In this document: piece after piece, positions 1-10,568 of the stretch
How positions within the stretch are numbered: position 1 is the first letter of the stretch
How the letters are laid out: each line of letters starts with the position of its first letter
Assembly (NCBI GenBank): GCA_021161545.1
Contig: JAGHAJ010000133.1
Span: 1 to 10,985, forward strand
Reading direction: 5' to 3'
Length of the DNA stretch: 10,985 nucleotides
DNA from: Synergistota bacterium
GTDB lineage: Bacteria; Synergistota; JAGHAJ01
Translations under genes and position numbers: made by a program
The notes under the pieces: generated by a model
The model's input: only the letters and a program-made list of their open reading frames with translations
Database searches by the model: none
Told to the model about the DNA's origin: nothing

Positions 1-797
1 CAGATAGAGTTGGTGAGTGGGTTGCGGTTTATGTTGCTAAGAGGATTCAGGATAGCTATAACTCTTCTAAACCCTTTGTCCTTGGTTTACCCACAGGTAG
101 CACGCCACTGTCTATGTATAAGAAGCTGATAGAGTTGAACAAGCTGGAAAAAGTAAGCTTCAAGAATGTGGTCACGTTCAACATGGATGAATACATAGGG
201 TTACCCAGAGAGCACCCCGCAAGCTACCATACCTATATGTTTAAGAATTTCTTTGACCACATAGATATACCTTCTCAGAACATAAATATACTTGATGGCA
301 TGGCTCCTGACCTTGAAGAAGAGTGTAAAAGGTATGAACGGAAGATAGAAGGATATGGGGGCATAGACCTCTTTGTTGGTGGTGTTGGGGAAGATGGTCA
401 TATAGCCTTTAACGAGCCTGGCTCCTCTCTGAGTTCCAGAACGAGGATAAAGGAGCTTACATACGACACGAGGCTTGCAAACGCAAGGTTTTTTGGAGGG
501 AATGTAGAAAAAGTGCCTAAGAGCGCCCTTACTGTGGGAGTAGGTACTATTTTGAGATCTAAGGAAGTGCTCATTATGGCGAGTGGTTATAGGAAGGCTG
601 TAGCTGTGTATCATGCTGTGGAGGATGGGGTAAATCATCTGTGGACGGTTTCAGCCTTACAGCTTCATGAGCATGCAACACTTGTGTGTGATGATGAAGC
701 TACAATGGAACTCAAGGTGAAAACGGTAATGTATTTCAAAGATATTGAGAAGGAATTTCTCGATGTTGACAGGCTTGAAAAGAGACTTCTGGGGTAG
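1..797 (+). CDS. nagB: Glucosamine-6-phosphate deaminase (5' end outside window)
   Basis: This enzyme converts glucosamine 6-phosphate to fructose 6-phosphate and ammonia, feeding amino sugars into glycolysis in the cytoplasm. The frame is open from base 3, well upstream of the first internal ATG at 114. It reads [13 protein letters not shown] and then LGLPTGSTP, the family's N-terminal phosphate-binding region, so only about ten residues are missing compared with the roughly 266-residue E. coli NagB. Seen in the sequence: [10 protein letters not shown] (Asp72 of E. coli NagB), [17 protein letters not shown] (Asp141, His143, Glu148), and SSRTRIKEL, which keeps the Arg158 and Lys160 equivalents that bind the allosteric GlcNAc-6-phosphate in E. 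coli. The C-terminal STMELKVKT is also typical. The gene appears intact up to its TAG stop. No rho-independent terminator is evident downstream. The downstream neighbour is a decayed transposase on the opposite strand, so nagB is the last gene of whatever unit it belongs to. Confidence 0.96.
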
Positions 798-1032
798 AGG
801 TTAAAAGATTATAGCTAACTCCTCCGCTTCTGCTCCGCTCTATGGTTTCCTTTTTCCTGGTAGTGTTGGTTTTATATGTGGTAAGCTGCATGGTAATCTG
901 TAGTTGGGATTTTGTGAAGCACTTGCTAATATTGGACCGCCAGAGAAATACGTCTTCTTTATTACTTCTCTATTGTGCCAGTATAAAATTGTGCTATGTC
1001 TTTATGTCTTGTTTGGATACGACTCAGATTAC
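798..1032. other. Gap with no supportable gene
   Basis: About 235 bp lie between the nagB stop and the inner side of the transposase remnant. Both strands are interrupted by stops. A + strand reading from 841 gives GFLFPGSVGFICGKLHGNL, a TAG at 901-903, and then LGFCEALANIGPPEKYVFF followed by a hydrophobic stretch up to the edge of the IS remnant. It could be a decayed membrane-protein piece, but I recognise no family in it. A short direct repeat (CTCCGC, five bases, CTCCGC) occurs near 824-840. No terminator hairpin is evident. Confidence 0.3.
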
Positions 1033-1059
1033 GGTAATGTCAACTTTTTGTGTTACCCC
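1033..1059. repeat. Probable terminal inverted repeat of the IS256-like remnant (transposase 3' side)
   Basis: The segment starts GGTAATGTCAAC and ends GTGTTACCCC, just beyond the transposase C-terminus. Its composition and position fit the outer end of IS256-family elements, as I recall them. I could not find the matching opposite copy near the other end (about 1740-1800), so that terminus appears to be lost. No target-site duplication can be tested. Confidence 0.4.
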
Positions 1060-1078
1060 TCTTTTATCATTTTCTCTC

Positions 1079-1784
1079 TCACTCCCCAAACACCTCTTGT
1101 ATAACACCAGAATATCTGAGCCTTCTTGATAACTATCTCTCACGCTTCTTGCTAAAGAACAGATAAAGAAACTTATCTGCACTCTTCTCCTTTTGTCCGA
1201 AAACCTCAAAAATTGGGTATAGTTGTCTATCTTGCCTTTCAAGGTTTGATATGAATTCTGGAACACCTCCTTCAAAACATTATCTAAACCCACTAAGTCA
1301 TCAGATATGATTAGCCTTGGTTCCCTTAGCCTCCTTTTGATCAAATCATCAAATATCTCCTTCCAATTGGAAGCTCTTTCATCTCCCCCTGGTAAATAAT
1401 AACCAAGCAATTCTCTTCTCCCATCATCCCTTAAACCTAATACAACATAAACCGCCTCTTTATCAACACTATCTCTCTTCAGTGGTACATATGTAGCATC
1501 TATGTAAAGCACAGGATAATAATCAGAGATAAAGTCCTGTTTCTAAACTCCTCTATCACACTATCTGCAATATCAGCAGATGAACTTATAAACGATGCAG
1601 AGACTGAAGAACCTACAAGCTCCATTTCTCCGAGAATTGTCTTTGGGCTTCTTAAATAATACCCATTTGCCCTTGTTTCCTTATTTTTCTCTAAATATGC
1701 CTTTCTCTCCCTAATCATAACCTCTTCAATCATGGCACTTGGTATGCAGATACTTACCATCCTGAAACTGGAACATATCTTCAT
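1079..1784 (-). pseudogene. Decayed IS256-family (mutator-type) transposase
   Basis: This is a broken DDE transposase assembled from three pieces. The N-terminal piece (about 1733-1617) reads MIEEVMIRERKAYLEKN and NGYYLRSPKTILGEMEL. It joins in frame at about 1616 to VSASFISSSADIADSVIEEFRNR, with some 50 residues of the usual family protein missing between. A frameshift near 1520-1527 then leads to the catalytic piece DYYPVLYIDATYVPLKRD (first Asp) through SDDLVGLDN (second Asp) to EVFQNS near 1248. More than 100 residues are missing there, including the region expected to hold the catalytic Glu. The sequence then resumes in another frame as NLERQDRQ and EVFGQKEKSADKFLYL. In that frame a TAG at 1133-1135 replaces what is normally Trp in the conserved (R)W..RRLRG segment. 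The frame ends with LSRRLRYSG to QEVFGE and a TGA at 1079-1081. The two open stretches at 1024-1512 and 1500-1784 are fragments of this one gene. It cannot encode an active transposase. Confidence 0.85.
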
Positions 1785-1792
1785 ACCTATCT

Positions 1793-2125
1793 GTGGAAAT
1801 ATTCAACAACAGCGCTGATATCTACTTCATTGACGAGCTCGTATTCGAAGAACTACTCACCAATATACCTACCCACATCCAGAAGAACTTTATAACTGAA
1901 ACACTAAAAGAACTGGAAGGAAAAGAGCATCTCATTCAAACACTTACTGCATTCTTTAACAACGGATTCAACATTTGTAAAACCGCAAAAGCAGCACATC
2001 TCCACAGAAATACCGTAAATAATCACTTACAAAAGATCCTCACCCTAACAGGGAAAGACCCTTTAAACTTTTATGATGCAGTTCAACTATACCTCGCAAT
2101 AATCCTGAAGAATCACGGTATCTAA
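1793..2125 (+). pseudogene. C-terminal fragment of a CdaR/PucR-type sugar-diacid regulator
   Basis: The 110-codon reading ends with a clear PucR/CdaR C-terminal helix-turn-helix domain at residues 46-106: HLIQTLTAFFNNGFNICKTA, HLHRNTVNNHLQKI, LTGKDPLNFYDAVQLYLAI. Family members carry IHRNTLRYRLxKI followed by LTGLD at the same place. Ahead of it, DIYFIDELVFEELL fits the region just before the HTH in full-length proteins. The ligand-binding N-terminal domain (about 250 or more residues) is absent, because the IS256 remnant begins immediately upstream. The frame can be extended only to 1766, after a TGA at 1763-1765. The GTG at 1793 has no convincing ribosome-binding site, so this is most likely a non-functional tail. 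Intact members activate sugar-diacid and glycerate genes, and E. coli CdaR controls gar genes that include a glycerate kinase. Here the TAA stop overlaps the stop of the convergent glycerate kinase gene. Confidence 0.8.
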
Positions 2126-3453
2126 GTGTATCCCACAAGTGCAACCACCACATCGTTCACATTTGTTTGCGTAGGACCCGTAAAGACAAGTCCTTCCAAA
2201 GCATTAAAAAAGTTATAGGAATCATTATTATCCAAATAACTGAGTGGATTTAACCCTCTATTTTGTGCCTTCAAAAGCGTAGTATCATCTACAACAGCAC
2301 CTGCAGCATCCGTTGGACCATCATTACCATCTGTAGAAAGAGATACGACCTTATATCCTTTCCATCCACTCATAGATACAGCAAGAGACAATGCAAGCTC
2401 TTGAGATCTACCCCCTTTGCCACTCCCTTGCACCTTCACAGTGGTTTCACCACCAAATATAAGCAGTTGCGGTTTTCTCTCATCACTGAAAAGATGCTCC
2501 TTCACTATCGCAGCTACAACCTTTGCAACTTCTCGTGCTTCACCCTCAACGAAACTCGTAAAGTGTATGGGAGAAACACCCAATTCAATCGCAGCATCAC
2601 ATAGAACACCACAAAAATATCTATTGTCTCCAATTATCTCCGTTACACTATCATTCATATCCTCATCTTCCGGTTTCAATGTCTCCTGCGCACGACCCTC
2701 TATGCCTTCCCGAAGATGCTTCCTAACAGAAGATGGAAGTCTATCCCACAAGCCATACCTTTTCAAAACATTTACCGCATCTTCAAATGTGGTAGAATCC
2801 ACAAACGTGGGACCAGAAGCTATTGAAGAAAGGTCGTTTCCAATAACATCAGATAGCACCATGGTAACAACCTTTGCCGGATAAGCAGCTTTCCTCAACT
2901 TACCACCTTTTAAAAAAGACAAATGCTTCCTCACACAGTTTATTTCCTGTATGGTAGCTCCACTCTTCAACAAAAGGTCTGTAACAAACATCTTATCTTC
3001 AAGGCTTATACCATCAGGAGCAGGTAAAAGCGCAGACCCACCTCCAGATATAAGCACAAACAGAATATCGCCATCAGAAAGCCCTCTCACAAGGTCATAC
3101 GCTGCTCGTGCCGCCCTAAGGCCATTTTCATCTGGTATTGGATGCCCAGCCTCCAATACCCTACACCTCCCCAGAGGCATGGAAAAACCGTATTTTGTGA
3201 CCACCAAGCCCCCCTTTAATCTATCTCCTAATATATCTTCTGCTCCTTTAGCCATAGCAACAGATGCTTTACCTATAGCAAGGATATATATATCTCCCTC
3301 TATCTTCACCCTTTTCCCTCTAATCACCAGACAATCACCAGAGAGCTTGAGATTATCCTTTACAACTACATCACCCCGAACCCGCTCAAAGGCTCTTTTT
3401 AGAATCTCCTCTAAAATCCTGCCACTCTCTCCATCTAAAGGTAGCTTCCACAT
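2122..3453 (-). CDS. Glycerate 2-kinase, MOFRL family
   Basis: This is a cytoplasmic kinase predicted to phosphorylate D-glycerate with ATP to 2-phosphoglycerate, an entry into lower glycolysis. Numbering from the ATG at 3453 gives 443 residues, normal for the family. The N-terminal DUF4147 domain has GKASVAMAKG (61-70), GHPIPD (103-108), ISGGGSALL (135-143), SDVIGND (201-207) and ASGPT (212-216). The C-terminal MOFRL domain has GGETTV (334-339), GKGGRSQE (345-352), STDGNDGPTDAAG (373-385) and GPTQTNVND (426-434). I chose 3453 because GAAGAAGG lies about seven bases upstream. An in-frame ATG at 3471 would add six residues but has no visible Shine-Dalgarno. It is the last gene of the operon, 7-25 nt behind the racemase gene depending on the start. 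Its TAG overlaps the convergent stop of the regulator fragment. The class is certain; the exact substrate (D-glycerate rather than a related hydroxy acid) is inferred from the family. Confidence 0.93.
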   Translation of the reverse strand: MWKLPLDGESGRILEEILKRAFERVRGDVVVKDNLKLSGDCLVIRGKRVKIEGDIYILAIGKASVAMAKGAEDILGDRLKGGLVVTKYGFSMPLGRCRVLEAGHPIPDENGLRAARAAYDLVRGLSDGDILFVLISGGGSALLPAPDGISLEDKMFVTDLLLKSGATIQEINCVRKHLSFLKGGKLRKAAYPAKVVTMVLSDVIGNDLSSIASGPTFVDSTTFEDAVNVLKRYGLWDRLPSSVRKHLREGIEGRAQETLKPEDEDMNDSVTEIIGDNRYFCGVLCDAAIELGVSPIHFTSFVEGEAREVAKVVAAIVKEHLFSDERKPQLLIFGGETTVKVQGSGKGGRSQELALSLAVSMSGWKGYKVVSLSTDGNDGPTDAAGAVVDDTTLLKAQNRGLNPLSYLDNNDSYNFFNALEGLVFTGPTQTNVNDVVVALVGYT

Positions 3454-3478
3454 ATCAACGCCTTCTTCCATAAAGTTA

Positions 3479-4750
3479 TCACATCAAAAGTGTATAAGGT
3501 CCCTCTGGGACAACATTCACGGTAAAATTATCACCATATCTCTTTCTTGCTTCATTAAACAGTTCATCTACCTTTTCTACAGGATTAACCATAAACCTCT
3601 TGATCCTCTCAGAGGAAAGCGATTCTGTATAGTAGAAAATATCCGCCTTCCTAAGCACTTTACACATCTCTTCAACCTGCCATTGATCTATCTTAAAGTA
3701 GTCTGGCTCCTTAAGTCTCTTCACCAAAAGCTCTGGATCTCCAAGCTCCCCGAGTTCAACAAGGACATCTTCAAACTCCTTCTTGCCTACCCCATTTGTG
3801 CAGGAAGATGCCACAAAGACTATACCACCCTCCCTAACAGCAGGTAAAACGGCAACCATGCCCTTTACCGACTGGTAAAATGTGGTATCCAGAGGATATC
3901 CTCCACCAGAGGATATAACAATATCTACTTCTTGAGCCACATCCACAACAGTAGAAGCAAGGAAATCAACAGCTTCATAAAATGCAGCTTTCAGATCTCC
4001 AGCAAACACCCCTGTAATATCCCTATCTTTGTTCAGCGTAACATTCAACATGAAATCCACACCGGCCATCTCAGCGATTTCCAATGCTTCTTCATGCACT
4101 GGATTATCCTTAATAACCCCAATTGCTGCATTGGGAGACTCCAAGAGCAAAGGACTATGCAAAACTTTTATGGTATCCAGCGCAGATATACCCGGTGCTA
4201 TACTTTTCCTTCCACCTGAAAACCCTGCCATAAAGTGAGGCTCCACAAGCCCAGTAATTATCTTCACTTCAGCATCTAAATATCTCTTATCTATCCATAC
4301 AGGAGTTCCTTTACGGGTAAGCCCCAAAAAGCTGTGAGAATGTTCATCAAGTGCATCATGCTGGAGTATTTTATACTCATCAACAATACCCTTACCCAAC
4401 ATTTCAATTAGTTCCTCCTTCGTGCACATCCTGTGCAACCCGGTTGCCACAAGAAAGTACACATCCTGCGGTGCCACACCACTTTCCTCAATAACACTCA
4501 GCATCACAGGCAGTATCACCTTATAAGGCACAGGCCTTGTAATGTCAGACACTACTATACACACCTTCTTCTTACCAGAAACCATCTCGGGCAATGAAAT
4601 AGAACCAATCGGATGCAAAAGACGATCTCTAATCTCAGACGCTATATCATGGATTCCATCAATCTGCTTACTCTCAACGATACCCAGAAGATTTTTATCC
4701 GGGACATCTATATCGAGAAACTTCATTCCATAAGGTATACTAACTATCAT
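3479..4750 (-). CDS. larA: LarA-family nickel-pincer 2-hydroxyacid racemase
   Basis: This family interconverts the two enantiomers of small 2-hydroxy acids (lactate in the founding member) using the covalently bound nickel-pincer nucleotide cofactor. The 423 residues match family length. The residues known in Lactiplantibacillus plantarum LarA are all present with a constant offset: Asp69 and Arg72 (SDITRPVP), His106 (TGLHR), His172 (EPHFMAGFSGG), Lys182 (GGRKSIAPG, the cofactor lysine), His198 (VLHSP, the nickel ligand), and Gln293 and Lys296 (FYQSVKG). It should therefore be catalytically competent. The larB, larC and larE cofactor-synthesis genes are not in this window and must lie elsewhere if it works. 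The ATG at 4750 follows AAGGTGGGAT at normal spacing, 16 nt after the LivF stop, and the gene ends 7 nt before the longer glycerate kinase start. The family includes enzymes for malate, gluconate and other hydroxy acids. The linked glycerate kinase makes glycerate a natural candidate substrate, but this is an inference. Confidence 0.9.
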   Translation of the reverse strand: MIVSIPYGMKFLDIDVPDKNLLGIVESKQIDGIHDIASEIRDRLLHPIGSISLPEMVSGKKKVCIVVSDITRPVPYKVILPVMLSVIEESGVAPQDVYFLVATGLHRMCTKEELIEMLGKGIVDEYKILQHDALDEHSHSFLGLTRKGTPVWIDKRYLDAEVKIITGLVEPHFMAGFSGGRKSIAPGISALDTIKVLHSPLLLESPNAAIGVIKDNPVHEEALEIAEMAGVDFMLNVTLNKDRDITGVFAGDLKAAFYEAVDFLASTVVDVAQEVDIVISSGGGYPLDTTFYQSVKGMVAVLPAVREGGIVFVASSCTNGVGKKEFEDVLVELGELGDPELLVKRLKEPDYFKIDQWQVEEMCKVLRKADIFYYTESLSSERIKRFMVNPVEKVDELFNEARKRYGDNFTVNVVPEGPYTLLM

Positions 4751-4766
4751 GGTATCCCACCTTCAT

Positions 4767-5477
4767 TCACATACCAAGATATGCCTTCTTAACTAATTCC
4801 GAATTCAGCAGTTCCTGTCCGCTACCTTCCAAAACTATTACCCCGTCCTGCAATACATATCCTCTGTCAGCAATTTCAAGTGCTCTGTGAATCTGCTGCT
4901 CTACCAAGAGTATAGGTACACCCTTCGAATGGATAACCTGAATTACCTCAAATATTTTATCCACTATCTTAGGTGCCAAACCCAAAGAGGGCTCATCCAA
5001 CATAAGCAACTCTGGATTACCCATCAAACCTCTCGCCATTGCAAGCATCTGCCTTTCTCCCCCACTCATGGTATCCGCCCTTGAGTGGTATCTCTCTTTC
5101 AAGACGGGGAAGATTTCCATCACTTCTTCTATCCTTTCTTCTATAACACTTTTGTCTTCCTTCCTATACTTGTAGCTTCCAAGATAAAGATTGTCCTTTA
5201 TCGTAAGCCTGCCAAATACTTTTCCACCTTCAGGCACAAGAACTATTCCCCTCTCTATCCGCTCATGTGGCTGATACTTCCCCATATCTTCCCCCATAAA
5301 CTCTATATTACCTTTCTTCAATCCTACAAGACCCACTATGCTCTTAAGTATAGTAGACTTTCCAGCCCCATTAGAACCTACTATAGTAACTATCTCTCCC
5401 TTATCGACCCTAAAACTCACATCCCTTATAACCGCCATGTTGCCATAACCTACCTGTATGCCATTAACCCTCAGCAT
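4767..5477 (-). CDS. livF: LIV-type (HAAT) ABC transporter ATPase, LivF-like
   Basis: This is one of two cytoplasmic ATPases energising the LivH/LivM channel encoded upstream. The 236-residue reading has Walker A GSNGAGKST (34-42), signature MSGGE (137-141), Walker B LLMLDEPSLGL (157-167), and LVEQQIHRALEIADRGYVL with Gln in place of the H-loop His, as is usual for LivF. The frame is open to 5519, but the ATG at 5477 (MLRVNGIQVGYG) aligns with the family start and has GGGGGA about nine bases upstream. The additional N-terminal residues of longer readings are unlike the family. The gene overlaps the end of livG by 14 nt, which implies translational coupling. The name LivF reflects subfamily and position. 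The cargo is probably not a branched-chain amino acid, given the racemase and kinase that follow directly. Confidence 0.93.
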   Translation of the reverse strand: MLRVNGIQVGYGNMAVIRDVSFRVDKGEIVTIVGSNGAGKSTILKSIVGLVGLKKGNIEFMGEDMGKYQPHERIERGIVLVPEGGKVFGRLTIKDNLYLGSYKYRKEDKSVIEERIEEVMEIFPVLKERYHSRADTMSGGERQMLAMARGLMGNPELLMLDEPSLGLAPKIVDKIFEVIQVIHSKGVPILLVEQQIHRALEIADRGYVLQDGVIVLEGSGQELLNSELVKKAYLGM

Positions 5478-6195
5478 GATAAACATCCCCCAAATAAGCT
5501 TTAATGACAGCAGGGTCATTTACTGCCTTTTCCTTCTCCCCATCAAATATCTTCCTACCATTTTCGAGAACTATTATCCTTTTACATATATTCATAACTG
5601 CACGCATAACATGTTCCACTATAATAAGCGTAATACCTTTTTTATTCAGCTTCCTCAGTATCTCCAATGATTCATCTATTTCAACCGCATTTAAGCCTGC
5701 CATCGCCTCATCAAGCATCAAAAGGGACGGGTTAGTGCTTAAAGCCATTGCTATCTCCAGTCTCCTTTGCTCAGGAGGAGGCAAACTCTCCCCTGAAACA
5801 TCCATCTTTTTACCTAACCCCACAAAAGAAAGAGTTTCAGCTGCCATGTCCTTCGCTTCAGAAACAGAGTTAGTCATCGCAAAGGCTCCTATCATCACAT
5901 TCTCAAGCGCCGTCATCTTTGGAAACACTTGAGTTATCTGAAATGTCCTTGCTATTCCTATCTTCGACACCCTATGGGGCGGCAATGCAGTTATATCCCT
6001 TCCGTCGAAAAAAACTTTACCAGAAGTCGGCTTATGAAAGCCGGTTATGCAATTGAAGAGTGTCGTCTTACCTGCCCCATTAGGACCTATAAGCCCTATA
6101 ATTTCACCCTTGTTAACAGTAAAGCTTATATCGTCATTGGCAACCAGACCACCAAACCTCTTCGTCAGACCCTCCACCTTGAGCAATTCACTCAC
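5464..6195 (-). CDS. livG: LIV-type (HAAT) ABC transporter ATPase, LivG-like, with altered signature motif
   Basis: This is the second cytoplasmic ATPase of the transporter, 243 residues. It has Walker A GPNGAGKTT (37-45), Q-loop RTFQITQVFP with Gln86, Walker B LLMLDEAMAGLNAVEID (from 158), and H-loop His195 (IVEHVMRAV). The C-terminal INDP-like segment AVNDPAVIKAYLG is typical of LivG. The ABC signature, usually LSxGQ or LPYGQ, reads LPPPEQRRLEIA (138-149). The glycine is lost, and the DNA shows three consecutive CCT codons. Related LivG ATPases whose Walker B reads LDEVMAGLNPTE also carry non-canonical signatures such as LTLAxRKRLE, so this looks like a subfamily trait rather than damage. 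Translation starts at a GTG (6195), supported by GGAAGGAGG ten bases upstream, 27 nt after the livM stop. Confidence 0.93.
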   Translation of the reverse strand: MSELLKVEGLTKRFGGLVANDDISFTVNKGEIIGLIGPNGAGKTTLFNCITGFHKPTSGKVFFDGRDITALPPHRVSKIGIARTFQITQVFPKMTALENVMIGAFAMTNSVSEAKDMAAETLSFVGLGKKMDVSGESLPPPEQRRLEIAMALSTNPSLLMLDEAMAGLNAVEIDESLEILRKLNKKGITLIIVEHVMRAVMNICKRIIVLENGRKIFDGEKEKAVNDPAVIKAYLGDVYHAEG

Positions 6196-6222
6196 TATAC
6201 CATATCCTCCTTCCAGCTCACT

Positions 6223-7167
6223 CTATTTGCGTATAAAGAATGACACAACTCCACGAGGTCTAAATATAGAAAATACCATTATTACAAAGCCGTAAACCAT
6301 TATATCCAACCCACTTCCCATACCTCCCCAGATTGCCCTTGCGTACTGCGAAAGTGGTACCAATATCAATGCTCCCCAAATAGGTCCCCATATAGTTCCA
6401 CTTCCACCAAACATAGCAATCAAGACTATCTCGACTGACAAAAAGTGTGCAAGGACACTCGGTGGGTCTATATAGAGAACATACTGTGCGTAGAAACTTC
6501 CAGCAACTGCAGTGAAAAAGGAAGCAATACTTATAGAAATAAGCCTATACTTTGCTATATTCACCCCAAGAGAAGCTGCAACCTCTTCATTCTCCCCAAG
6601 GGCCCTCAAGTAAAAGCCCGTTTTGGACTTAATCACCTTATTCACCACATAAACAGTAAGCAGCATCAAAAACAAACCTATATAATAATAGGGAAGCTTA
6701 CTACTCCTGAACTGAAAAGCATACCATGAGTCTGCAGGAGCCAGTTCAGGAGACAACCCAGTAGCTGCACCCACAAAGCTCCAATTAGTAAACAGAATAT
6801 TTATAATCCATGCGAACGCTATGGTGGCAATAGCAAAGTAATGTCCTTTTAGCTTAGAGCAAGGATACCCTATTGCGATACCTGCAGCTATAGCAACCAA
6901 ACCACCTGCAATCATACCTATCCAAGGAGTCAAACCCAACTGCATATAGAGAAGCGTAGATGTATACGCACCTATACCAAAAAACGCTGCCTGACCAAAG
7001 GAAAACAAGCCCGAATACCCTCCAATGACATTCCACGATTCTGCAAGCATCCCGTACATAAACACCATTATAGCCACATGCTGCACAAACGGGACATTAA
7101 ACACAATTGGAAAAACTATTGCCAATACCACCAAGACCACATAATACAAGTGCTTTCCCTTCTCCAT
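6223..7167 (-). CDS. livM: LIV-type (HAAT) ABC transporter permease, LivM-like
   Basis: This is an inner-membrane permease forming the translocation channel with LivH. It has 314 residues from the ATG at 7167 and many hydrophobic segments throughout. Family marks are NVIGGYSGLFSFGQAAFFG (46-64), the cytoplasmic ATPase-contact loop SKTGFYLRAL to EEVAASLGVNIAKYRL (181-209), and MFGGSGTIWGPIWGA (252-266) close to the C-terminal helices. An in-frame GTG at 7191 would add eight residues but lies inside livH. The ATG at 7167, four bases after the livH TGA, is preferred and uses a GGTGGTGAG sequence within the livH end, suggesting coupled translation. Confidence 0.92.
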   Translation of the reverse strand: MEKGKHLYYVVLVVLAIVFPIVFNVPFVQHVAIMVFMYGMLAESWNVIGGYSGLFSFGQAAFFGIGAYTSTLLYMQLGLTPWIGMIAGGLVAIAAGIAIGYPCSKLKGHYFAIATIAFAWIINILFTNWSFVGAATGLSPELAPADSWYAFQFRSSKLPYYYIGLFLMLLTVYVVNKVIKSKTGFYLRALGENEEVAASLGVNIAKYRLISISIASFFTAVAGSFYAQYVLYIDPPSVLAHFLSVEIVLIAMFGGSGTIWGPIWGALILVPLSQYARAIWGGMGSGLDIMVYGFVIMVFSIFRPRGVVSFFIRK

Positions 7168-7171
7168 AATC

Positions 7172-8038
7172 TCACCACCCAAAGAATCCACGAGGTTTTA
7201 TGAATATCACTATCAGGTAAAGGGAAAAGACCAGTGCATACTTGTATGCAGGTCCTACCAATACACCACCAAGACTTTCAACTTCTCCTATAATGATAGC
7301 AGCAATAACTGCACCCGTAATACTGCCAAATCCACCCAGCGCAACAATAACAAAGGACATCAATCCAAACAGCAACCCTACATAAGGTGAAATGTAGTAG
7401 TAAGATGACAGTATTGCACCGGCTATTCCAACGCATGCCAGGCCTATACCAAAGGAAAGAGCGTTTACTTTCTCGGTATCTATTCCCATCAGTTTTGCCG
7501 TTTCCCTATCTATCTCCGTGGCCATAATGGCCCTTCCTGTCATAGTGTTTTTCATAAACCAGGACAGAAATAGTGTTACAACAATAGTTATAAGCGAAGC
7601 AATGACTTGAGGATAAGAAACATAGACGCCATGGATATTTGTTGATTGACTCAATATACCAGAGACTTTTACTGTTCTATAGTTCCCAGTGAACAGAAAC
7701 AAAAACAATCCCTGCAGAAATGCACTCAAACCGAATGTAACAACAACCTGAGCCAACATAGGTCCACTCATTACCTTGCTTACAATATACCTATAAACCA
7801 GCCACCCTGTTCCAAAAAGTATCACCGCAGAAACTGGTATGGACATTACTGGAGAAAAGTGCCAAAATGTATACAATCCAAGCGTTATATACATTGACAC
7901 CATCAAGAACTCCCCGTGTGCAAAGTTTACTATGTTCATAACACCCCATATTATGGAAAGTCCCATTGCTATAAGTCCATAAGGCAAACCTAACAGCAAC
8001 CCACTAACCATTGCCTGTACCAAGTTTGTTGTGTCCAC
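7172..8038 (-). CDS. livH: LIV-type (HAAT) ABC transporter permease, LivH-like
   Basis: This is an inner-membrane permease partner of LivM, 288 residues, strongly hydrophobic. Family motifs are GLSIIWGVMNIVNFAHGEFLM (26-46), the coupling loop TGRAIMATEIDRETAKLMG (167-185), and ALGGFGSITGAVIAA (233-247), with a final IKPRGFFG before the stop. The start is a GTG at 8038 preceded by AAGGAGGGATTGATGA, a strong ribosome-binding site at about nine bases. An overlapping ATG in that spacer is in another frame. It lies 56 nt behind the solute-binding-protein gene, the largest gap in the operon, and that gap carries one half of a 14-bp inverted repeat. Confidence 0.93.
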   Translation of the reverse strand: MDTTNLVQAMVSGLLLGLPYGLIAMGLSIIWGVMNIVNFAHGEFLMVSMYITLGLYTFWHFSPVMSIPVSAVILFGTGWLVYRYIVSKVMSGPMLAQVVVTFGLSAFLQGLFLFLFTGNYRTVKVSGILSQSTNIHGVYVSYPQVIASLITIVVTLFLSWFMKNTMTGRAIMATEIDRETAKLMGIDTEKVNALSFGIGLACVGIAGAILSSYYYISPYVGLLFGLMSFVIVALGGFGSITGAVIAAIIIGEVESLGGVLVGPAYKYALVFSLYLIVIFIKPRGFFGW

Positions 8039-8067
8039 TCATCAATCCCTCCTTAAATTTTTAAAAA

Positions 8068-8081
8068 GCCAGCAGTGAGAG
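8068..8081 (+). repeat. 14-bp inverted repeat, copy 1 (between binding-protein gene and livH)
   Basis: GCCAGCAGTGAGAG on the + strand is an exact reverse complement of the segment at 9385-9398. The copies sit in the two non-coding spacers on either side of the solute-binding-protein gene, so in the operon transcript the 5' leader and this downstream spacer could pair perfectly. Confidence 0.6.
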
Positions 8082-8094
8082 ATAAAATCCATAC

Positions 8095-9357
8095 CTAACG
8101 CTTATTCCATGCAGGAACTGGAAATACTACTTTGGTAGAAGCAACATTCCACGGCCATACTGTATGATACTTGCCACCCTGAATCTGAACGAGTATGTAT
8201 CTTGCATAGATATTCTGGTGAATCTTGTTGAACTTCACACCCTTCCACGCCATGAGTATCTTGTCACCCGGGATATCTGTCTCTAAGAGTACCTTCCTTA
8301 TAGCATCTGGATCCAGAGAACCAGCCCTGTTTATAGCATCTGCCAATACTAAAGGTGCATTGAAGCTTCTTGCCGCAATACCACTCATATCCCTACCATA
8401 TTTCTTCTTGTAAAGCTCATTCACTTTCCCAATCAACGGCTTAATCCTTGCAAGGTCAGGATTAAATGTGGACCTGACAACAACATATTCCCCATCTTTA
8501 CCAACGGATTTTATGTAGTTAGGATCCAGATAGCCACTCATACCCATCCAGAGAGGCACATTGAAGTTTAACTTCTTGAAGGTCTTGGTGAAGAGTATAG
8601 CATCGGAGACATATGGTGCATGCATAAGGACATCCGGCTTGCTACTCTTGAGCTTCAAAACCTCACTTGTCACATCGGTAGCACCGTGATAGTAAGGAAT
8701 ATCCGCAACTATCTTGAATCCAAACTCTTTTGCCCACTTACGCTGCTGAGCAGCAACCTTGGAACCCCATTCTGTGTTCTCATACAGAAGTGCAACCCTT
8801 CTGAGTTTTCTGTTAAATTTCTTCTCCATATCCTGAACAAATTCAAAGAAGTTACGAGCAGAAATCACATCATCGGGGTTTACACGGAAGAAATACTTAA
8901 AACCTCTTCTTGTAAGAGCTGGAGATGTAGCATCAGAAAGGACATAAGGTATTTTCAATCTTTCTGCCGCGTAACTTGCCGTCTTCACAACTGCACTCTG
9001 ATAACCTCCAACCATTGCAACAACATGTTCGGAAGTAATTAACCTCTCCGCTTCCGCCATACCTGTCCTCGGTGAACCCTGGCTATCCGCAAAGATTATC
9101 TTAATCTTTGCCCCACCAAGAGAGGGGATACCTTCGGTACGTGCCATAATCAAATCAAGGTCGTATTTACCATTAATTATGTCAACTGCAAGCTCCACTC
9201 CCTCTTTACATAGTTTACCCGTAGGTGCTATATCACCTGTTAGCGGGTAAACTGCCCCAACTTTTATTACCTTGGTAGCAAACGCAACCCCATAAAGCGC
9301 AAACAAGACCAATGAAAGGGCTACCACCAAACCCAACACCCGTTTACCCTTACTCAT
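8095..9357 (-). CDS. Periplasmic solute-binding protein of a LIV-type (HAAT) ABC transporter
   Basis: This is the binding protein that captures substrate outside the cytoplasmic membrane and delivers it to LivH/LivM. It has 420 residues, type I periplasmic-binding fold (Peripla_BP_6 kind). The signal peptide is basic (MSKGKR) followed by a hydrophobic core to about residue 24, with likely cleavage after AFA27. No lipobox Cys is present, so the mature protein should be free in a periplasm, which argues for a diderm host. The mature start KVIKVGAVYPLTGDIAPTG is typical, followed by IKIIFADSQGSP, MVGGYQSAVVKTAS and RVNPDD. The ATG at 9357 follows GGGAGGT at good spacing. It is the first gene of the seven-gene operon and follows a leader with a candidate promoter and operator. 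Family members bind amino acids, amides, urea or aromatic acids. The ligand here is unknown; a hydroxy acid is inferred from the co-transcribed racemase and kinase. Confidence 0.93.
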   Translation of the reverse strand: MSKGKRVLGLVVALSLVLFALYGVAFATKVIKVGAVYPLTGDIAPTGKLCKEGVELAVDIINGKYDLDLIMARTEGIPSLGGAKIKIIFADSQGSPRTGMAEAERLITSEHVVAMVGGYQSAVVKTASYAAERLKIPYVLSDATSPALTRRGFKYFFRVNPDDVISARNFFEFVQDMEKKFNRKLRRVALLYENTEWGSKVAAQQRKWAKEFGFKIVADIPYYHGATDVTSEVLKLKSSKPDVLMHAPYVSDAILFTKTFKKLNFNVPLWMGMSGYLDPNYIKSVGKDGEYVVVRSTFNPDLARIKPLIGKVNELYKKKYGRDMSGIAARSFNAPLVLADAINRAGSLDPDAIRKVLLETDIPGDKILMAWKGVKFNKIHQNIYARYILVQIQGGKYHTVWPWNVASTKVVFPVPAWNKR

Positions 9358-9566: not shown

Positions 9567-10568
9567 TTAATCTATACTTACAGTCCTGAGTCTATTTCTT
9601 ATGTCCTCAACTGTCAGCCACTTGTCATTTTTGTTAGAAGAAAATATAAAGCCGTATTCTTTTCTTATACCCCGTTCTCCCCAAACATTAACTTGATACT
9701 CTGGTCTACCCGCAAATGTAATTGAAGGTACAATTACATAATAATCCCTGAATTCTAATGTATTAAATGACTCGTCAAGCGAGACAAGGGTCTCATGAAG
9801 CTTTTCCCCAGGTCTTATCCCAACAATCTCAAATTCTGCATCAGGAAGTATGGCTCGCGCTAAGTCTACTATCCTCATAGAAGGGATCTTAGGTACAAAA
9901 ACTTCTCCACCTTTCATAGTTTCAAAGCACTTTATAACAAAATCAGCTGCTTCATCAAGTGTTATCCAAAATCGAGTCATATCTGGATGTGTAATAGGAA
10001 GCTTTTTAGCTCCATCTTTTGCAAGTTTCTGAAAAAGAGGTATTACACTCCCTCTCGATGCCATAACATTGCCGTATCTAACAATACTAAAACTTATATC
10101 CCTTGAACCCCTTATGTTGTTTGCAGCAATAAACAATTTATCACTTGCCAACTTTGTTGCGCCATACAGGTTTATAGGATTTACCGCCTTATCTGTAGAA
10201 AGTGCTATTACTTTCTTAACTCCCATATCTATGGCAGCATCTATAACATTGTTTGCACCCAATATATTAGTTTTTATTGCCTCCATCGGATTGTATTCAG
10301 CTACAGGTACCTGCTTCAGTGCAGCTGCATGTACTACATACTCTATGCCCTCCATAGCCCTCCTTAACCTATCCCTATCACGTACATCTCCAATGAAATA
10401 CCGCATACATTTGTTATTAAACACTCGCGACATTTCAAACTGCTTAAATTCATCCCTCGAGTAAACAACAACTCGCCTAGGTCTATACCTCCTTAATAAC
10501 AACTCAACGAATTTCTTACCAAAACTCCCCGTACCCCCAGTTATGAGAATAGCTTTCTCATCAAACAT
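9567..10568 (-). CDS. pseB: UDP-N-acetylglucosamine 4,6-dehydratase, PseB-like
   Basis: This is a cytoplasmic NADP-dependent extended SDR that removes water from UDP-GlcNAc (with C5 inversion in true PseB), the first step toward pseudaminic acid and related sugars for flagellin or surface glycans. It has 333 residues, normal family length. Seen in the sequence: cofactor loop TGGTGSFG (10-17); LSTDKAVNPINLYGATK with Asp126, Lys127, Tyr135 and Lys139, matching Asp132, Lys133, Tyr141 and Lys145 of H. pylori PseB with a constant offset; RYGNV (164-168); HPDMTRFW (194-201); RPGEKLHE (252-259). The ATG at 10568 has GGGGAG about seven bases upstream. The ATP-grasp-like gene ends 55 nt upstream on the same strand, so both are probably in one glycan operon. 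A non-inverting or capsule-type dehydratase of the same family is possible without the rest of the locus. Confidence 0.88.
   Translation of the reverse strand: MFDEKAILITGGTGSFGKKFVELLLRRYRPRRVVVYSRDEFKQFEMSRVFNNKCMRYFIGDVRDRDRLRRAMEGIEYVVHAAALKQVPVAEYNPMEAIKTNILGANNVIDAAIDMGVKKVIALSTDKAVNPINLYGATKLASDKLFIAANNIRGSRDISFSIVRYGNVMASRGSVIPLFQKLAKDGAKKLPITHPDMTRFWITLDEAADFVIKCFETMKGGEVFVPKIPSMRIVDLARAILPDAEFEIVGIRPGEKLHETLVSLDESFNTLEFRDYYVIVPSITFAGRPEYQVNVWGERGIRKEYGFIFSSNKNDKWLTVEDIRNRLRTVSID

Follow-up and report, generated by a model that had tools for sequence, protein, structure and literature searches.

The LIV/HAAT branched-chain amino acid importers (LivKHMGF) combine a periplasmic binding protein with the permeases LivH and LivM and the ATPases LivG and LivF. 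In the binding proteins LivK and LivJ, the carboxylate of the ligand is held by Ser79 and Thr102, and its amino group by Glu226. Among the 2-hydroxyacid racemases of the LarA family, the lactate racemase (LAR) group possesses the residues F,F,W,E/Q at positions 175, 176, 358 and 359 of the pocket, and a Q at the last position, as found in the glycerate-preferring LarAH43, has been linked to that preference (PMC11770544). LarA_Ip of Isosphaera pallida (PDB 9eia, 9eid) is a broad-spectrum lactate racemase that works best on lactate and 2-hydroxybutyrate, followed by glycerate (PMC11851776).

The locus described here places an importer of the first kind next to an enzyme of the second and to a glycerate kinase. 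It lies in a window of 10,985 nucleotides, the whole stretch of DNA that was analyzed, which is the entire contig C21 of a Synergistota genome (1.58 Mb in 288 contigs, 82% complete). The comparison set consisted of 185 genomes of the same phylum, kin to this genome at the phylum level only; its family has no second representative among them. The initial annotation listed seven genes on a single strand, in the order binding protein, LivH, LivM, LivG, LivF, LarA and glycerate kinase, and both the open reading frames and the Pfam and NCBIfam family matches bear this out (Table 1). The intergenic gaps at the likeliest starts, from the binding protein to the kinase, are 56, 4, 27, -14, 16 and 7 nt. 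Thus, the spacing given earlier holds as well, with no gap above 56 nt, an overlap of livG and livF, and livM beginning 4 bases after livH. The livF-larA gap is 16 nt and the larA-kinase gap 7 nt. The livF reading frame opens at 5519 and its likely start, 5477 or 5486, overlaps livG. Chance reading frames were ruled out because all seven genes match curated families. Base composition is uniform, with a G+C content of 41-44% over all seven genes, which also rules out larA and the kinase gene as a visible foreign island. With a Peripla_BP protein, LivH, LivM, LivG and LivF in one predicted operon, the first five genes constitute a HAAT/LIV ABC importer. A weak promoter-like site precedes the binding protein gene, and such sites are no commoner in the window than in shuffled sequence. 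The outermost genes of the window, nagB and a putative sugar-nucleotide epimerase gene, appear unrelated to the operon.

Table 1. Features of the window and related loci.
Feature	Position	Strand	Evidence or remark
nagB without its N-terminal part	114-797		near contig end
IS256-family transposase, broken	1024..1784	-	Transposase_mut 4e-16; IS256 8.7e-24, partial, for 1024-1512
cdaR 3' remnant (CdaR-type, sugar-diacid regulator)	1793..2125	+	convergent with kinase; CdaR model 6.7e-13
Class II (MOFRL) glycerate 2-kinase	2122..3471	-	DUF4147 6e-82; MOFRL 5e-39
LarA, nickel-pincer-nucleotide (NPN) 2-hydroxyacid racemase	3479..4750	-	Lar_N 1.5e-63 and LarA_C
LivF-type ATPase	4767..5477	-	ABC_tran; top model LivF 4.3e-72, matching from residue 14
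LivG-type ATPase	5464..6195	-	ABC_tran; top model LivG 2.6e-67
LivM-type permease	6223..7167	-	BPD_transp_2 1e-38; reading frame open from 7191, start probably ATG 7167
LivH-type permease	7172..8038	-	BPD_transp_2 3.9e-38; top NCBIfam models, UrtB/LivH, score below cut-off
Periplasmic binding protein (Peripla_BP_6, LIV/HAAT type, 420 aa)	8095..9357	-	Peripla_BP_6 2.5e-53
Promoter-like site, weak	9488-9460		
Sugar-nucleotide epimerase, by appearance	9567-10568		
Second glycerate kinase operon, same genome	L203 445-6012		contig C27
Divergent LarA, same genome	L067 1147-8161		contig C40
LarA in microcompartment locus, Humimicrobium-type Actinomycetota	L089 567-7733		
LarA and LIV-type importer in one run, genome G006	L072 4074-15386		
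LarA-enolase-glycerate kinase clusters	L207 873-6376, L208 8190-12291, L224 6989-12805, L227 7290-13041, L228 203-5535		

We lean towards the view that the seven genes form one operon that serves to take up and metabolize a short 2-hydroxy acid of either handedness, most likely glycerate. The binding protein would capture the carboxylate outside the cell, and LivHMGF would import the hydroxy acid, glycerate of either enantiomer, at the expense of ATP. LarA would then interconvert the L and D forms, and the MOFRL kinase would phosphorylate D-glycerate to 2-phosphoglycerate, which would enter lower glycolysis at enolase. The basis of this pathway is the identity and order of the genes, the catalytic and pocket residues of LarA, the loss of the amino-binding acid from the binding protein and the recurrent linkage of LarA with glycerate kinase; we infer the substrate, its stereochemistry, the co-transcription and the flux.

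The importer possesses the same five components and fold families as LivKHMGF, but its binding protein is just 22% identical to LivK and carries Ser where LivK has Glu226. When this protein was aligned with LivK (verified as identical in sequence to PDB 1usg), LivJ and 3td9, the carboxylate-binding Ser79 and Thr102 proved to be kept, while the position of Glu226 was occupied by Ser274, a result with which profile-profile alignment agrees. An acid at this position was found in none of the 29 aligned relatives, nor in 8wch, a 'Probable Leu/Ile/Val-binding protein' that is the best PDB match (full-length, 1.1e-101) and on which a literature search returned no relevant publication. Both 3td9 and the paralog encoded on contig C22 of the same genome retain an Asp there. 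The window protein therefore falls outside the LivJ/LivK type as defined by an acid at Glu226, and because the amino-group-binding acid has been lost, an amino acid importer is unlikely. On the best reading of the sequence, the ligand would be a plain or hydroxy carboxylate that lacks an amino group, most likely L- or D-glycerate, with lactate as the rival. The import of a hydroxy acid, as first proposed, thus gains indirect support as far as a non-amino ligand is concerned. The accompanying claim of a new specificity for LIV systems was in part overstated, since members of the importer family for compounds other than amino acids, such as urea, have already been named (NCBIfam Urt models). The literature search found no paper on glycerate import by TRAP systems or on lactate binding by HAAT systems. 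A structure predicted for the binding protein from its single sequence was discarded (mean pLDDT 40).

LarA of the window carries both domains of its superfamily, the full set of NPN-binding residues and the catalytic residues R72, H106, H172, K182 and H198, which correspond to R75, H108, H174, K184 and H200 in LarA1 numbering. The NCBIfam model Ni_dep_LarA is the best match, although its score of 428 bits does not reach the equivalog cut-off of 460 bits. For maturation of the cofactor, the genome encodes three LarC matches and one LarE-family match, the latter just above cut-off. At the four selectivity positions, the enzyme reads F,M,W,Q and so shares three of the four residues of the LAR group; by its residues the pocket is of the lactate/glycerate type, a type within which sequence alone cannot separate the two substrates. 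LarA_Ip is the best solved match (7.6e-107). Both enzymes have the same catalytic set and a W and a Q at selectivity positions, but LarA_Ip has L at 175 where the window LarA has F. Phylogenetically, the window LarA groups with planctomycete and actinomycete LarA proteins, including LarA_Ip (SH-aLRT 99, on a long branch of a quick tree).

This relationship underlies the main alternative, that lactate or 2-hydroxybutyrate is the substrate of the operon, in which case lactate would be imported, LarA would be a lactate racemase of the ordinary kind, and the kinase would be a neighbor with an unrelated role. The nearest characterized LarA favors lactate and 2-hydroxybutyrate (PMC11851776), which counts against the glycerate pathway. 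The closest LarA relatives in other phyla occur in lactate-type loci, namely microcompartment loci that include an FAD oxidase of the lactate type, and the F,M,W,Q pocket is common among relatives from other phyla (59 of 79). However, the operon contains neither a lactate dehydrogenase nor an oxidase, the kinase gene follows larA after just 7 nt, and it is a different LarA of the genome, on contig C276, that adjoins a GlcD-type FAD oxidase and a symporter. On balance, the lactate operon seems unlikely. The genome encodes five copies of LarA, and the four outside the window have pockets of other types, one of them with the malate-racemase pair H,K. On contig C40, a divergent LarA has an FMN oxidoreductase on one side, preceded by a urocanase gene, and the two aconitase X genes on its downstream side. 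In a Humimicrobium-type actinomycetote, LarA was seen in a bacterial microcompartment locus with PduL, an aldehyde dehydrogenase, BMC shell proteins and a lactate-type FAD oxidase.

The kinase possesses the DUF4147 and MOFRL domains of class II glycerate kinases, and its matches to PH0495 (1x3l, 1.6e-106) and the glycerate kinase 2b8n (1.6e-95) are near full-length, at more than 320 bits. Its scores with both NCBIfam glycerate 2-kinase models fall short of the equivalog cut-offs. A second glycerate kinase, 59% identical to that of the window, is encoded on contig C27 of the same genome in an operon of the order CdaR-DctP-DctQ-DctM-kinase without LarA. The genome therefore uses the combination of importer and kinase twice, and by inference the TRAP-kinase operon, having no racemase, could be restricted to D-glycerate. 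A TRAP-kinase run matching that of C27 is present in genome G107 (L229).

Conservation of the seven-gene order was looked for and found in none of the relatives examined. Within the phylum, it was absent from the 185 genomes among the matches listed in searches with LarA and the kinase. Outside the phylum, the order was looked for from the LarA side; around the 80 LarA relatives of other phyla, at 38-48% identity, neither a class II kinase nor a LIV binding protein or permease was detected. The exact seven-gene operon is thus unique to the window's genome so far. That the order comes from one genome and that these LarA relatives lack kinase and LIV neighbors both count against the pathway reading.

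The functional idea of a pairing between LarA and the kinase holds up better than exact synteny. At least 11 other loci, in at least nine other genomes of the phylum, have larA co-directional with a glycerate kinase gene within 6 kb, as compared to 0.65 expected (219 possible pairs); these loci span five genera and three families and are not independent events. In the LarA tree, their complete sequences form two clades, and the window LarA represents a third lineage. Of the dedicated pathway put forward by the initial annotation, it is accordingly the LarA-kinase step that finds support, as the linkage recurs in two other LarA clades, one of them with enolase and TRAP genes.

The latter, enolase-type clade comprises five loci among the matches listed (G042:C265, G064:C6, G115:C32, G112:C5 and G110:C257). 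Enolase adjoins the kinase in all five, a 2-hydroxyacid dehydrogenase is present in four, and TRAP genes are in view in four. The LarA of G110:C257 is cut by the contig end and was left out of the tree; the four complete LarA proteins all have the pocket E,F,D,H, a set absent from the published list, and they are candidate dedicated glycerate racemases. Because enolase consumes the 2-phosphoglycerate that the kinase produces, the cluster reads as a near-literal module from glycerate through 2-phosphoglycerate to phosphoenolpyruvate. As in the window, a transporter, LarA and a class II kinase occur together. In contrast to the window, the transporter is TRAP and not LIV, enolase and the dehydrogenase are added, and LarA belongs to another clade.

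In the other clade, with six loci among the matches listed, LarA has the pocket F,F,W,E/Q, OtnK adjoins the kinase in five of the six, and PdxA was seen in three scanned loci. The neighbors of the LarA-PdxA-OtnK-kinase loci are tetronate and galactarate enzymes, suggesting a use of LarA in sugar-acid breakdown. Such clusters were observed at L204, L205, L223 and L226, one of them with KdgT and a galactarate/altronate dehydratase. By analogy with these neighbors, the window's operon might serve not free glycerate but a hydroxy acid of four carbons or of sugar origin (tetronate, tartronate or glycerate from sugar diacids), and the CdaR-type remnant beside it, together with the longer cdaR that heads the C27 kinase operon, points in the same direction. 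Since the operon encodes no aldolase, dehydratase, PdxA or OtnK, this is very improbable.

It is also conceivable, although doubtful, that the cargo of the importer is an amino acid or some other carboxylate that is used independently, and that LarA and the kinase are a separate two-gene module which came to lie beside the importer genes through chance or an IS256-driven rearrangement. The SBP-LivHMGF cassette is found in many genomes of the phylum; it stands alone and keeps its order in 14 of the 15 neighborhoods read, with varied neighbors, and its order with LarA and the kinase is unique. At 53, 49 and 46% identity, three binding proteins come closest to that of the window, one of them encoded in genome G006. 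The nearest relatives adjoin a 2-oxoacid oxidoreductase and fumarase, or IlvD/Edd, and not the glycerate kinase, a further point against the glycerate pathway. Moreover, the kinase adjoins the remains of an IS256 transposase gene and a piece of cdaR that was copied recently. The cdaR remnant is 95% identical in DNA to the cdaR of the C27 operon, and the transposase piece, also 95% identical, recurs beside the C27 kinase, indicating that the flank downstream of the window's kinase was recently rearranged. However, the rearranged DNA is found downstream of the kinase gene, away from the livF-larA junction, the binding protein lacks the amino-binding acid, and in genome G006 a binding protein of the same subfamily again occurs in a same-strand run with a larA.

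This long run encodes LarA, a phosphatase, a 2-oxoacid:ferredoxin oxidoreductase, SBP-LivHMGF and both fumarase subunits. The genes immediately upstream encode lactate permease and an oxidase of the GlcD type. The larA of the run is of another type than that of the window and is 73% identical to the copy on contig C246. The arrangement points to a further import pathway for a hydroxy acid that would rely on the same type of importer.

Taken together, and still tentatively, a LIV-type binding protein subfamily common in the phylum may have lost the amino-binding acid and import hydroxy acids, and may here have been wired to a racemase and a kinase as a dedicated glycerate uptake operon. The operon would then be one instance of a LarA-glycerate kinase pathway that arose independently three times in the phylum, another being that of the E,F,D,H clade, whose LarA would be a dedicated glycerate racemase. 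The in vivo roles of LarA enzymes remain to be determined (PMC11770544), and a literature search apparently found no paper with the term 'glycerate racemase'. LarA racemizes glycerate in vitro, and its repeated genomic pairing with glycerate kinase and enolase provides a concrete, testable pathway. Additionally, for a large group of importers of this phylum that are annotated as 'branched-chain amino acid', the actual cargo probably has no amino group.
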